Shown here one piece after another: positions 10,055-47,656 of a DNA stretch of 64,000 bases. The notes below the pieces were generated by a model, which made no database searches, was not told the origin of the DNA, and was given only the letters and a program-made list of their open reading frames with translations. Position 1 is the first letter of the stretch; each line of letters starts with the position of its first letter. This DNA comes from Amycolatopsis sp. EV170708-02-1 (GTDB lineage Bacteria; Actinomycetota; Actinomycetes; Mycobacteriales; Pseudonocardiaceae). The stretch lies in contig NZ_CP092497.1 of assembly GCF_022479115.1 (NCBI RefSeq), positions 248,001-312,000 of the forward strand, read 5' to 3'. The translations under genes and the position numbers were made by a program.

Positions 10055-12950
10055 TTACGGGGTGGCCAGCTCGGCACGCAGGTAGCGCATGAGCTCGAGG
10101 GGGGTCGCGTGGTCGAAGACCAGCGTCGGCGCCAAGTCCAAACCGGTCGCCGTGGCCAGCCGGTTGCTCAGCTCGACCGCGGTCAGGGAGGCGAAGCCGA
10201 GGTCGAGCAGGTCGGCCTCCGGCGGCACCTCGTCCGGGGAGTCGTGGCCCAGCACGGCCGCGATGGCCGCCCGCAGCAGATCCAGCACCGCCTTGTCGCG
10301 GCCGCTCTGGTCCAGTGCGTCGAGCTCCTGGCGGAGATCGGCGACGACGACTTCGTCCGGCTCCGTGGCCGGGCCGGCCGTGACCGGCTCGGCGTCCAGC
10401 CAGAAACGCTTGCGCTGGAACGGATAAGTGGGCAGGTCGACCCGGCGGGCCGCGGTCCCTTCCAGTACCGCGGGCCACTCCACGCCGACGCCGCGGACGT
10501 GCAGGGCGCCGAGCGCGGCCAGCACCGACTCCGGCTCGGGCCGGTCGGCCCGCAGCAACGCGGTGGCGCCCGGCGTCAGCGCGGAGAGCGGTCCGTCCGG
10601 GCCGATCTCGACGAAGGTCGTCACGCCCGCGGCCTGTGCCGCGGCCACGCCGTCGGCGAAGCGGACCGTCTCGCGCACGTGACGGACCCAGTACTCGGGT
10701 GAGCGCAGTTCCTCGCCGCCCACCCGGCCGGTCAGGTTCGACACGATGGGCGTCGACGGCTCGCGGAATTCGACGTCGTCGAGCACCCGGCGGAAGTCGG
10801 CCAGCATCGGCTCCATCAGCGGCGAGTGGAACGCGTGGCTCACCCGCAGCCGTTTGGTCCGGCGGCCCCAGGCACGGACGGTCTCGGCGATCCGGGTGAC
10901 CTCCGCGTCGGCTCCGGAGACGACCACCGCCGACGACCGGTTCACCGCGGCGAGGCTCACCGACTCGGTGAGCAAGGGCGTCACCTCGGCTTCGGTGGCC
11001 TCGACCGCGACCATCGCGCCGCCTTCCGGCAACGCCTGCATCAGCCTGCCGCGGGCGGCGACCACCCGGCAGGCGTCGGCCGTCGACCAGAGCCCGGCGA
11101 CGTGCGCCGCCACGAGTTCACCGATCGAGTGCCCGGCCAGCACTTTCGCCGTCACGCCCCACGATTCGAGCAGCCGGTGGAGCGCCACCTCGAACGCGAA
11201 CAGCGCGGGCTGGGCGAATTCGGTGCGGTCGAGCAGCTCGGGCTTGTCCCACACGATGTCGGCCAGCGGGCCGAACTCACCGCAGATCCCGTCGAAGGCC
11301 TTGGCGAACACGGGGAACCGGGCGGCCAGTTCCCTGCCCATCCCGGCGCGCTGGGAACCCTGGCCGGAGAACAGGAAACAGACCGCGCCGGATTCGGGCA
11401 CGCCGACGCTGACCTGCGCGGCCGGAGTGCCGGTCGCGATCGCGGTCAGGCCGCGCTCCAGGTCCGCGCGGTCGCGGGCGATCACCACAGCCCGGTGGTC
11501 GAAGAGGGTCCGGGTGGTCGCCGACGACCACGCGATTCCCGCCGGGTCCTGATCGGCCACGAGCCGGAAGCGCTCGGCCTGCGCACGCAAGGCCTGTTCG
11601 GTCTTCGCGGACAGCAGCACCGGGACGGCGACGTCGTCACGCGGCTCCGGAGGCGTGGCGAGTTCGGCGGGCGGGGCTTCGAGGATCACGTGTGCGTTCG
11701 TTCCGCTGATACCGAAGGACGACACCGCGGCGCGACGCGCTCGGCCCACCTCAGGCCACTGCTGTTTCCTGGTGAGCAGGGCGACCTCGCCTGCCGTCCA
11801 GTCGACGTGGGAGGAGGGCTCGTCCACGTGCAGGGTCTTCGGCAGCACGCCGTGCCGCATGGCTTCCACCATCTTGATGACCCCGGCGACGCCCGCGGCG
11901 GCTTGGGTGTGCCCGAGGTTCGACTTCACCGAACCCAACCACAGCGGGTGATCGCGGTCCTGGCCGTACGTGGCGAGCAACGCCTGCGCCTCGATCGGGT
12001 CACCCAGTGTGGTGCCGGTCCCGTGCGCTTCGACGGCGTCGACGTCGCGGGCGGCCAGGCCCGCGCTGTCGAGAGCCTGACGGATGACTCGCTGCTGTGA
12101 CGGGCCGTTCGGCGCGGTGAGGCCGTTCGAGGCGCCGTCCGAGTTGACCGCGCTCCCCCGCACGACCGCCAGCACCGGATGGCCGAGGCGCCGGGCGTCC
12201 GACAGCCGTTCCACCAGCACGGCGCCCGCGCCCTCGCCCCAAGCGGTCCCGTCGGCGGCTTCGGCGAACGATTTGCACCGGCCGTCCACCGCGAGCCCTC
12301 GCTGGCGGCTGAAGTCCACGAACGCCGCGGGTGTCGCCATGACCGTGACGCCGGAGGCGATGGCGGAGTCGCACTCCCCCTGCCGCACGGCCTGCGCAGC
12401 CAGATGCAACGCGACCAGCGACGACGAGCACGCGGTGTCGATGGTGAGCACGGGACCTTCGAGCCCCAGCGTATAGGCGAGCCTGCCGGAGGCGACGCTG
12501 CCCGCGTTGCCGCTGCCCAGGTAACCCTCGACGTCCTCGGGAACGGTCAGGAGACGGGCGGCGTAGTCGTGGTACATCATCCCGGTGAACACGCCGGTCC
12601 GGCTGCCGCGCACCGAGCGCGGGTCGATCCCGGCGCGCTCGAACAGTTCCCACGTGATCTCCAGCAGCAGCCGCTGCTGAGGGTCCATCGCGATGGCTTC
12701 GCGCGGCGAGATGCCGAAGAACGCCGCGTCGAACTGGGCCGCGTCGTGCAGGAATCCGCCTTCGCGGACGTAAGACCGGCCGCGGCGGTCCGGGTCCGGG
12801 TCGTAGAGCCCCTCGACGTCCCACCCGCGGTCCGCCGGGAAGGGCGTGATCGCGTCCCGGCCCGCCGAGACGAGATCCCACAGCTCCGACGGCGACGTGA
12901 CCCCGCCCGGATAGCGGCAGCTCATCGCCACGATGACGACCGGGTCGTCG
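10055..12950 (-). other. PKS module 8: KS-AT(malonyl)-ACP
   Basis: The AT carries HAFH, predicting malonyl-CoA. No KR, DH or TE follows. This unreduced last unit leaves the beta-ketone needed for a tetramic acid, tetronate or pyrone head group. Confidence 0.9.
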
Positions 12951-46300: not shown

Positions 46301-47656
46301 CCCGGAAACCAGCCAGGGCACGATGTCCAGCGCGGTACGCGGCTCGCCGGAATGCTGGGGCTGCGGGGCGTCGGACAACACCACGTGGCAGTTCGTGCCG
46401 CCCATGCCGAACGACGAGACCCCCGCCACCAAGGGCGCGTCGGGCCGGGGCCAGGCGGACAGCGACCGTTGCACGGACAGGTTGAGCCGCTCCAGCGGGA
46501 TCGCGGGGTTCGGCGTCTCGAAGTTCAAGCTGGCGGGCAGTTCCCGGTGCCTGATGCTGAGCGCGGTCTTCACCAGCCCGGTGATGCCCGCGCCCGCCTC
46601 CAGATGGCCCACGTTCGTCTTCGCCGAGCCGACGAGCAGCGGCGAGCCGTCCGGGCGATGCCGTCCCAACGCCGCGCCGAGCGCCGAGGCCTCGATCGGG
46701 TCGCCGAGCCGGGTGCCGGTCCCGTGCAGTTCGACGTACTGGACCTCCTCCGGCCGCACTCCGGCGCGCTCGCAGGCGAGACGGACGGCCTGCTCCTGGG
46801 CGGCGGCGTCCGGCACGGTGAGGCCGGGGGTCGCGCCGTCGTTGTTGACCGCGCTTCCCCGGATGACGCAGTGGACCTCGTCGCCGTCGGCGATCGCGAC
46901 GGACAACGGCTTGAGTACGACGACCGCGCCGCCTTCACCGCGGACGTAGCCGTTGGCCCTGGCGTCGAAGGTGAAGCACCTGCCATCCGGTGACAGCGCG
47001 CCGAACTTCGCGGCCCCGATCGTGCTCTCCGGCGCCAGGTTCAGGTTCACGCCACCGGCGATGGCCACAGTGGACTCACCGTTGCGCAGGCTCTCGCAGG
47101 CCAGGTGCACGGCGACGAGCGAGGAGGACTGGGCGGTGTCGACGGTCAGGCTCGGGCCGTTGACACCGAGGGTGAAGGAGATCCGGTTGGCGAGGATGCC
47201 GCGGTTGAGCCCGGTCAAGGTGTGCGGCCCGATGGCCTCCGTGCCGCGCAGGTTCGCCAGCGCGGCATAGTCGCTCGCGGTCGCGCCGACGAACACGCCC
47301 GCGTTCGTGCCGGCCAGGCCGGCGGGCACGATCCCGGCGTCCTCGAGCGCCTCCCAGCTCAGTTCGAGCATGAGGCGCTGCTGGGGGTCCATCGCCGCGG
47401 CTTCCCGTGGCGAGATCCCGAAGAACGCCGGATCGAATTCGTCGACCCGGTCGAGGAAACCGCCCCGCTCGACGGGAACCCGGCCCGCCTCGTCCACGTC
47501 CCAGCGGTCCGCGGGCACCGCGGAGATCGCGTCCGCGCCCTCGCGCAGCAACCGCCAGAACTCGCTCACCCCGGGCGCGCCGGGCAACCGGCAGGACAGC
47601 CCGACAATGGCGATCGAATCATCAGTACCGACACCGACCTGCGTCAGAAAGTCCAT
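32892..47656 (-). CDS. Type I modular PKS, loading module and modules 1-3, with an apparent 1-bp frameshift
   Basis: This is the first PKS protein, about 4921 residues once one base is restored. The ATG at 47654-47656 opens [19 protein letters not shown] behind GGGGAAG. The order is KSQ-AT-ACP loading, then KS-AT-KR-ACP, KS-AT-ACP and KS-AT-KR-ACP, then a C-terminal docking domain ([11 protein letters not shown] ... [12 protein letters not shown]). In the module 2 KS the frame breaks at a run of four G on the plus strand (39900-39903). Before it the protein reads YGSRLHEAP; in the next frame it resumes [13 protein letters not shown] and the normal KS continues. A fifth G makes the whole length divisible by three. 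Homopolymer sequencing error is the likeliest cause. If real, the cluster would be non-functional as it stands, or need frameshifting. The upstream region (47657-47947) carries 11-bp activator boxes and diverges from a dehydrogenase gene. Confidence 0.93.
37356..40309 (-). other. PKS module 2: KS-AT(methylmalonyl)-ACP, no reduction
   Basis: KS Cys lies near residue 2624; the His motif reads KSNIAH rather than KSNIGH, but the His is kept. AT has GHSQGE and YASH (near 3157). The AT is followed after a 45-residue linker directly by an ACP (GFDSL near 3377). The retained ketone suits the future ketal carbon. The frameshift lies in this KS. Confidence 0.9.
39897..39906 (-). other. Apparent single-base deletion (frameshift site)
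   Basis: The plus strand has four G (39900-39903) where five are needed. The minus-strand frame switches from E-A-P-R-A-W to E-G-L-E-G-F, matching the equivalent KS segment of module 1 ([10 protein letters not shown]). Confidence 0.85.
40310..44710 (-). other. PKS module 1: KS-AT(methylmalonyl)-KR-ACP
   Basis: KS Cys lies near residue 1154. AT has GHSQGE near 1589 and YASH near 1692. KR has TGGTGALG near 2099, LDD (B type) and YAAAN. ACP Ser lies near 2389. This unit is the one with no counterpart in the tirandamycin acyl chain. Confidence 0.9.
44711..47656 (-). other. Loading module: KSQ-AT(malonyl)-ACP
   Basis: The KS has [13 protein letters not shown]: Gln replaces the active Cys, the hallmark of a decarboxylating KSQ. 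The AT has GHSIGE and HAFH (near residue 707), so it takes malonyl-CoA and yields an acetyl starter. The ACP Ser lies near residue 925. Confidence 0.92.

Follow-up and report, generated by a model that had tools for sequence, protein, structure and literature searches.

A nocamycin-type gene cluster in Amycolatopsis sp. EV170708-02-1

A stretch of 64,000 nucleotides of the Amycolatopsis sp. EV170708-02-1 genome (positions 248,001 to 312,000 of contig NZ_CP092497.1; hereafter the window) was found to carry most of a gene cluster that we assign with high confidence to the nocamycin type of polyketide synthase-nonribosomal peptide synthetase (PKS-NRPS) clusters, with a KSQ loader, eight extension modules, a glycine NRPS, NcmC-type release and two extra cytochromes P450 (P450s). 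The remaining parts lie 0-13.5 kb beyond the left end of the window, and the whole cluster spans 234,499-296,757 of the contig (window -13,501 to 48,757, ~62 kb) in a genome assembled as a single contig of 9.66 Mb. The analysis also took in flanking sequence, 60 kb on the left of the window and 40 kb on the right, and genes were called with a simple codon-score finder; all positions below are those of the window, with negative numbers to the left of it. Nocamycins are tetramic-acid antibiotics and, like tirandamycin and streptolydigin, probably RNA-polymerase inhibitors (PMC5466765).

A sequence-only reading of positions 10055-47656, which are indeed the end points of the PKS genes, had derived a tirandamycin-type acyl chain with one extra unit and had named nocamycin and Bu-2313 as the nearest larger relatives. 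The module string proved identical to the published nocamycin line (PMC5466765), and the relationship was firmed up by the NcmC homologue, the NRPS code and the orthologues of most ncm genes. The scaffold could therefore be predicted correctly by a reader from raw sequence. “Tirandamycin-type plus one unit” can now be read as a nocamycin type carrying two additional P450s, and the data support a compound of a kind already known, since nocamycin V has been reported from an Amycolatopsis.

The assembly line consists of a KSQ loader and eight modules

The motif scan located all nine acyltransferase (AT) motifs where they had been claimed, HAFH in the loader and modules M3, M7, and M8, and YASH in M1, M2, M4, M5, and M6. 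HAFH and YASH mark malonyl and methylmalonyl specificity, respectively, and LDD marks a B-type ketoreductase (KR). The ketosynthase (KS) domains in the window scored down to E=5e-101, which excludes chance matches. All PKS genes are on the minus strand, and the module borders inside the multi-module proteins are approximate, as they were estimated from the translations. The loading module (44747..47656; KSQ-AT(malonyl)-acyl carrier protein (ACP)) has a glutamine in its KS active-site motif (DTAQSSS) and contains GHSIG, HAFH, and LGFDSL, in agreement with the acetate loader read earlier. It is followed by module 1 (40352..44746, approximate limits; KS-AT(methylmalonyl)-KR(B-type)-ACP), which would provide the C14-methyl/C15-hydroxyl arm, by the non-reducing module 2 (37398..40351, approximate limits; KS-AT(methylmalonyl)-ACP), the KS of which is frame-broken at ~39,899, and by module 3 (32892..37397, upper limit approximate; KS-AT(malonyl)-KR(B-type)-ACP), the last of the NcmAI-type protein. 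PKS3, the NcmAII orthologue of 1711 amino acids (27757..32892; 58% identical to the Saccharothrix syringae protein), comprises module 4 with KS-AT(methylmalonyl)-degenerate dehydratase (DH)-KR-ACP. Domains and orthology identified PKS4 (23114..27760) as the NcmAIII orthologue with module 5, KS-AT(methylmalonyl)-KR(no LDD, A-type)-ACP, and PKS5 (17815..23097) as the NcmAIV orthologue with module 6, KS-AT(methylmalonyl)-DH-KR-ACP. PKS6, the NcmAV orthologue, contains module 7 in its N-terminal part (12992..17818, lower limit approximate; KS-AT(malonyl)-DH-KR-ACP) and module 8 in its C-terminal part (10055..12991, upper limit approximate; KS-AT(malonyl)-ACP), which ends without a thioesterase.

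KR domains are present in M1 and M3-M7 and absent from M2 and M8. The LDD motif was found in the KRs of M1, M3, M6, and M7, the M4 KR reads LED, and M5, without LDD, has the sole A-type KR of the assembly line. DH domains occur in M4 (degenerate), M6, and M7. Translations and motif scan thus bore out the earlier reductive pattern for M1-M3 and M5-M8; for M4, the methylmalonyl specificity and the KR had been recognized correctly, but a DH-fold domain ahead of the KR (29497..30210) had been overlooked. The M1 arm, predicted as C14 methyl and C15 hydroxyl, corresponds to the nuclear magnetic resonance data of nocamycin III in Table 4 of PMC5466765, and the carbon mapping fits the same compound, with a methyl at C14, an oxygen at C15 and C16 as methyl.

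A database search with PKS3 returned Amycolatopsis proteins of near-equal length and 87-93% identity as the top four foreign matches (among the best 120 of 7976), one of which is annotated automatically as “rifamycin polyketide synthase”. The concern that the closest matches might be unrelated macrolide synthases did not hold for PKS3; for the remaining four, the comparison covered nocamycin-, Actinosynnema- and streptolydigin-like loci only.

Predicted glycine incorporation and release, and comparison with the S. syringae cluster

Extension to the left of the window and comparison with tirandamycin-, streptolydigin-, and nocamycin-type loci, as had been proposed, revealed a C-A-T NRPS and the NcmC homologue. 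The NRPS (-13501..-10469, minus strand) was recognized by domain scan and is 69% identical to its S. syringae counterpart (best segment only). The eight-residue code of its adenylation (A) domain, read by eye from the A-domain sequence, is D-I-L-Q-L-G-V-I and equals the published glycine code of NcmB (PMC5466765). For this reading the GrsA numbering was applied. The NcmC-type Dieckmann cyclase (-2532..-1717, minus strand; 57% identical to the S. syringae enzyme) matched NcmC (PDB entry 6e6t, E=2e-84) and keeps the Cys-Asp-His residues in GYCAG, FDPES, and HADLL. Its gene stands in a row of four linked by 4-base overlaps, the others being those of an NcmP-type methyltransferase, an NcmF-type protein and P450-3.

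For the S. syringae nocamycin locus, genome G162 (10,929,570 bases; NcmC 99% identical) was used, which we take to be that species. Table 3 of PMC5466765 includes NcmM, L, N, O, P, C, B, D, Q, AI-AV, E, F, G, H, I, J, and K, and the lengths given for NcmAI-AV are 4915, 1786, 1554, 1786, and 2679 amino acids. The two clusters share the loader and eight-module string, the glycine code and counterparts of most named genes, and if the frame shift described below is an error, the modules are spread 4-1-1-1-2 over five PKS genes in both. The cluster studied here differs in its rearranged gene order, two more P450s, a second PadR gene, an M4 DH without the YGPxF segment and the lack of an NcmK match. 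Over the best segments, the PKS proteins are 58-65% identical to those of S. syringae, 70-74% to those of an Actinosynnema locus (G143) and 46-56% to those of a streptolydigin-like locus (G533). The Actinosynnema locus contains an NcmQ-type gene (60%), which the finder did not call in S. syringae; no counterpart of the FMN protein or the FAD monooxygenase (see below) was seen in this locus.

The tailoring genes include P450-4 (-861..242, of which 1..242 lie in the window; minus strand; 72% to NcmO), P450-3 (-5170..-3971, minus strand; 68% to NcmG), the methyltransferase (-1720..-986 as first called, minus strand; 63% to NcmP) and, as the last gene kept in relatives and thus the right edge of the conserved cluster, a short-chain dehydrogenase (47948..48757, plus strand; PF00106; 64% to NcmD). 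NcmP has been assigned to methyl ester formation, NcmG to a part in furan ring formation and NcmD to the C10 oxidation of nocamycin F (PMC7773637); by analogy, the NcmD orthologue would carry out C10 oxidation here. A GH16-fold dehydratase of the NcmE/TrdE/TamE type (9230..10039, minus strand; PF00722; 75% to NcmE) keeps the ExDxxE motif and, by the same reasoning, may catalyze the C11-C12 dehydration.

In the pathway that we propose, the KSQ loader and the eight modules would build the chain, the C-A-T NRPS would append glycine and the NcmC-type cyclase would free the chain as a tetramic acid. Closure of the C13 ketone with the C7 and C9 hydroxyls would give the dioxabicyclononane ring system, and the C11 hydroxyl would be taken off by the GH16-like NcmE orthologue. 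The NcmG, NcmO, NcmP, and NcmD orthologues are predicted to form the furan ring, the methyl ester and the C10 ketone, and the TamI-like and clade-specific P450s would probably oxidize the molecule further to a nocamycin V-like product. Gene content, domain order, orthology, the glycine code and the extra P450s are read from the sequence; the chemistry, the product and the timing of the steps are predicted.

The degenerate dehydratase domain of module 4

The bicyclic ketal formation was not fully understood as of 2017, and the “abnormal” DH of module 4 has been proposed to take part in it (PMC5466765). In the M4 DH studied here (29497..30210, minus strand), HxxxGxxxxP with the catalytic His and the catalytic Asp are retained, but the YGPxF segment is missing and DxxxH has lost its His. 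Eighteen domains, namely the DHs of M4, M6, and M7 from six clusters, were aligned; A. keratiniphila, in which the M6 and M7 DHs but no separate M4 gene were seen in the contig used, was left out. All 18 domains, the six from M4 among them, keep the first-motif His and the second-motif Asp. The Gly of HxxxGxxxxP is replaced by Asp in some DHs, among them likely active M6 domains. A deletion of 14 columns removes the YGPxF segment from M4 in the genome studied here, A. oliviviridis, G022, and Actinosynnema; S. syringae M4 reads CSPAF in its place, and in S. indica M4 the segment is present. Many M6 and M7 domains read HGPxF, and A. oliviviridis M7 reads YGTAF. At the DxxxH position, His is found in 12 of 12 M6/M7 domains, and the six M4 domains have Gln (two) or neither residue (four). 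The DH in the first PKS protein of the streptolydigin-like locus has intact motifs.

According to one explanation, the M4 DH is a decaying, functionless remnant and the bicyclic ketal closes spontaneously. A ketone and two hydroxyls at such spacing can close without an enzyme, and the YGPxF segment and DxxxH are gone in four of six M4 domains. The ratio of nonsynonymous to synonymous substitutions (dN/dS) against Actinosynnema is also not lower for the M4 DH (0.39) than for the M6 (0.34) or M7 (0.38) DH, with 0.61 for the spacer after the M4 DH. However, in the closer comparisons with A. oliviviridis and G022, dN/dS of the M4 DH (0.14 and 0.19) does not exceed the values for the M6 (0.17 and 0.28) and M7 (0.30 and 0.30) DHs, whereas the adjoining spacer reaches 0.50 and 0.45, and His and Asp are retained in all six M4 domains. 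On this evidence we see an even chance that the domain is such a remnant.

The model of the M4 DH had a mean predicted local distance difference test (pLDDT) score of 91.5, with 12 of the 18 input rows being M6/M7 domains that keep the segment. The top structural matches were PKS dehydratases (6obv, template modelling score 0.93), and the ambruticin dehydratase-cyclase ranked tenth. These data fit a non-dehydrating domain constrained by purifying selection, although the constraint could be structural only. It seems rather unlikely that the M4 DH of Amycolatopsis and Actinosynnema was remade into a dedicated non-dehydrating domain that closes or guides the ketal, combined with tirandamycin-style oxidation of the nocamycin core by the extra P450s. 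Because four of the six M4 DHs have lost canonical motifs and yet still look constrained, these six domains constitute a natural experiment on the domain proposed to form the ketal.

A second candidate for ketal closure is the NcmF-type protein (-3974..-2529, minus strand; 68% to NcmF). Proteins of this type resemble class II terpene cyclases and were seen in ten loci resembling those of nocamycin, tirandamycin or streptolydigin. In none of the ten aligned NcmF/TrdF/SlgF-type proteins, one of them shortened to 470 residues, was the DxDD motif present, and TrdF and SlgF are described as not needed in PMC5466765; a role as ketal cyclase was set aside on these grounds. Twelve genomes with an NcmC relative were also inspected. 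Adjacent NcmF-type and close GH16 genes were found in three of them (G162, G143, and G083); in the other nine, nothing matched NcmF at 1e-10 and the GH16 matches were all weaker. Goodfellowiella coeruleoviolacea, a relative, carries an NcmC-type gene, an NRPS gene, an NcmO-type gene and the beginning of an NcmAI-type gene beside larger PKS genes, and its GH16 and NcmF genes are on a different contig.

Two additional cytochromes P450 mark a sub-group of clusters

Four P450s are encoded in the cluster, the NcmO and NcmG orthologues and the additional P450-1 (-10075..-8855, minus strand) and P450-2 (-6371..-5181, plus strand). P450-1 shares 55-57% identity with P450s from streptolydigin- and tirandamycin-like loci and at most 40% with NcmG and NcmO of S. 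syringae. Its best PDB relative was TamI (E=7e-140; next protein 3e-97), which in tirandamycin biosynthesis catalyzes C10 hydroxylation, epoxidation and a final hydroxylation (PMC11375781). The nearest structures to P450-2 are pentalenic acid synthase/CYP105 proteins. Close relatives of P450-2 were found in A. keratiniphila (95%), A. oliviviridis (90%), A. jiangsuensis (86%), and S. indica (79%), followed by a drop to 50% (among the best 120 of 395 matches), and P450-1 is also present in the cluster loci of all four species. Neither P450 was seen within 120 kb around the S. syringae and Actinosynnema loci, the part of those genomes that was searched. As judged from these sequences, the extra P450s mark a sub-group composed of A. 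keratiniphila, A. oliviviridis, probably A. jiangsuensis (G022), Saccharopolyspora indica and the genome studied here, and P450-1 and P450-2 probably bring about further oxidation. A nocamycin core of a more oxidized type is expected for clusters with both P450s.

Nocamycin V is listed from an Amycolatopsis associated with the ant Trachymyrmex smithi (Hansen et al., 2022, as cited in PMC10932968), and genus and compound family are shared with the present cluster. The extra P450s would fit a more oxidized nocamycin such as nocamycin V, and the two clusters are perhaps the same. The nocamycin V cluster is reported to include more oxidative enzymes. Bu-2313A/B are products of Microtetraspora caesia, and Bu-2313B is almost the same compound as nocamycin I (PMC5466765).

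Frame shifts within the cluster

Several points weigh against the assignment to a nocamycin-type pathway. The NcmAI-type gene and the NcmP-type methyltransferase gene are each frame-broken by one base in the assembly, and a real shift in the former would halt the pathway at M2. The order in which the PKS proteins act is deduced from gene order and the likeness to nocamycin, and no gene of the region matched S. syringae NcmK at 1e-8.

The NcmAI-type gene appears as two open reading frames (ORFs), 39701-47656 and 32892-39704, both on the minus strand. The M2 KS begins in the frame of the former and goes on in that of the latter from ~39,899. The five PKS proteins read earlier are therefore six ORFs in this assembly, the first gene being split by the one-base shift, while gene calling gave five genes each for A. 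oliviviridis, G022, S. syringae, and the Actinosynnema locus. As the start of the second ORF (at 39704) falls beyond the active-site cysteine of the KS, a real shift would abolish M2. The methyltransferase starts ~40 codons further upstream in relatives, and its frame breaks in between, near the start of the gene (-983); the frame is unbroken in A. keratiniphila, A. oliviviridis, and G022.

It is conceivable that the M2 shift is a true mutation and that the cluster is dead in this strain for want of module-2 condensation. The shift is present in the sequence, a second one affects the methyltransferase and, when 43 A. keratiniphila proteins were compared across the region, both shifts detected fell inside the cluster. 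However, both sit in short single-base runs, and similar breaks occur elsewhere in the assembly. In a control block of 160 kb around rpoB compared with A. oliviviridis, 4 of the 139 compared proteins (154 called) were broken, with five breaks in total; the reverse comparison gave breaks in 2 of 143 proteins (158 called), at loci already on the first list, where it is ambiguous which genome is broken. The copy of the ribosomal protein L14 gene examined (~8,379,519 of the contig) is frame-broken here and complete in A. oliviviridis. Together with the probable breaks in three other genes of the rpoB region, this is probably a sign of one-base errors in homopolymer runs. Moreover, the product of the ORF downstream of the M2 shift (PKS2) is 88-95% identical to those of three Amycolatopsis relatives. 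Since the best-matching sequences of five relatives (A. keratiniphila, A. oliviviridis, G022, S. indica, and Goodfellowiella) are one base longer at this site and do not show the shift, and since the L14 gene is broken in the same assembly, we read the M2 KS shift as very probably a sequencing error, and a dead cluster is very unlikely. A programmed frameshift was ruled out, as the five relatives read through and similar shifts are found elsewhere in the assembly.

An apparent anomaly was also observed in A. keratiniphila DSM 44409 (L045:5732-10363), in which PKS3 and PKS4 are fused into a mosaic gene that leaves out parts of modules 4 and 5. Loss of module 4 in this species was rejected because another A. 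keratiniphila record contains a PKS3 homologue of 1709 amino acids (93%); the merger is probably a short-read assembly collapse.

Relation to tirandamycin- and streptolydigin-like loci

Two loci (G679 and G712) that we labeled as tirandamycin-like share with the cluster studied here a TrdE/TamE-type GH16 gene, the TrdF and TrdC types and a full-length NRPS match, and G679 also has a TamI-like P450. Their NRPS (52-53%) and cyclase (39%) identities are lower, and both loci sit on short contigs that lack a full PKS. Locus G533, of the Streptomyces group, which we take to be streptolydigin-like from the slg layout, likewise has GH16, NcmF-type and TamI-like P450 genes. In contrast to the present cluster, it encodes three PKS proteins of other sizes, places condensation and adenylation on different proteins, and contains an intact-motif DH in the first PKS protein, taken as the M4 equivalent. 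The GH16-type dehydratase gene and the TamI-like P450 gene each occur twice in this locus.

The tirandamycin chain has one extension unit fewer. An acyl chain without the C14-C16 arm is not what the modules encode, as M1 supplies a methylmalonyl unit with a KR. A product of the tirandamycin or streptolydigin type is thus highly improbable, for although the GH16, NcmF/TrdF-type, NcmC-type, and NRPS genes are common to those loci and a TamI-like P450 is present, the cluster has eight extension modules including the extra M1 unit, shows lower identities to them (NcmC type 35-39%, NRPS 36-53%, and PKS 46-56%, the last for the streptolydigin-like locus only), contains NcmG, NcmO, NcmP, and NcmD orthologues, and no TamL-type berberine-bridge oxidase was named in the Pfam scans of 49 ORFs from ~-23 kb to +63 kb, which covered some of the genes at piece borders and in which some ORFs are spurious or one gene with two starts. 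The FAD protein of the cluster belongs to PF01494.

Other genes of the cluster and its surroundings

The nocamycin-type cluster further includes a major facilitator superfamily pump of the NcmH type (-8008..-6368, plus strand; 78%), a PadR regulator of the NcmI type (-8598..-8005, plus strand; 69%) and, by gene call, a glyoxalase-like protein (-10437..-10072, minus strand). Inside the window, orthologues of NcmN (LuxR-family regulator, 931..3684, minus strand; 48%), NcmM (FMN_bind_2 protein, 3912..4553, minus strand; 73%), NcmL (FAD monooxygenase, 4553..6046, minus strand; 65%), and NcmJ (AAA/helicase-type ATPase of 713 amino acids, 6225..8366, minus strand; 67%) precede the second PadR-family regulator (8446..9021, plus strand; PF03551). 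NcmL is reported as not needed for nocamycin in S. syringae (PMC5466765). A plus-strand ORF at 6021-9152 was considered as a possible NRPS and discarded, as it had no family match and the true coding sequence there is that of the ATPase, on the opposite strand.

Next to the cluster, a melibiase/NPCBM alpha-galactosidase-like gene (48850-50775) was found, which is missing from the short flanks covered for A. oliviviridis and G022 and is also present in A. keratiniphila. The same genome contains a second large modular PKS locus at 5,587,000-5,647,200 with 12 KS matches.

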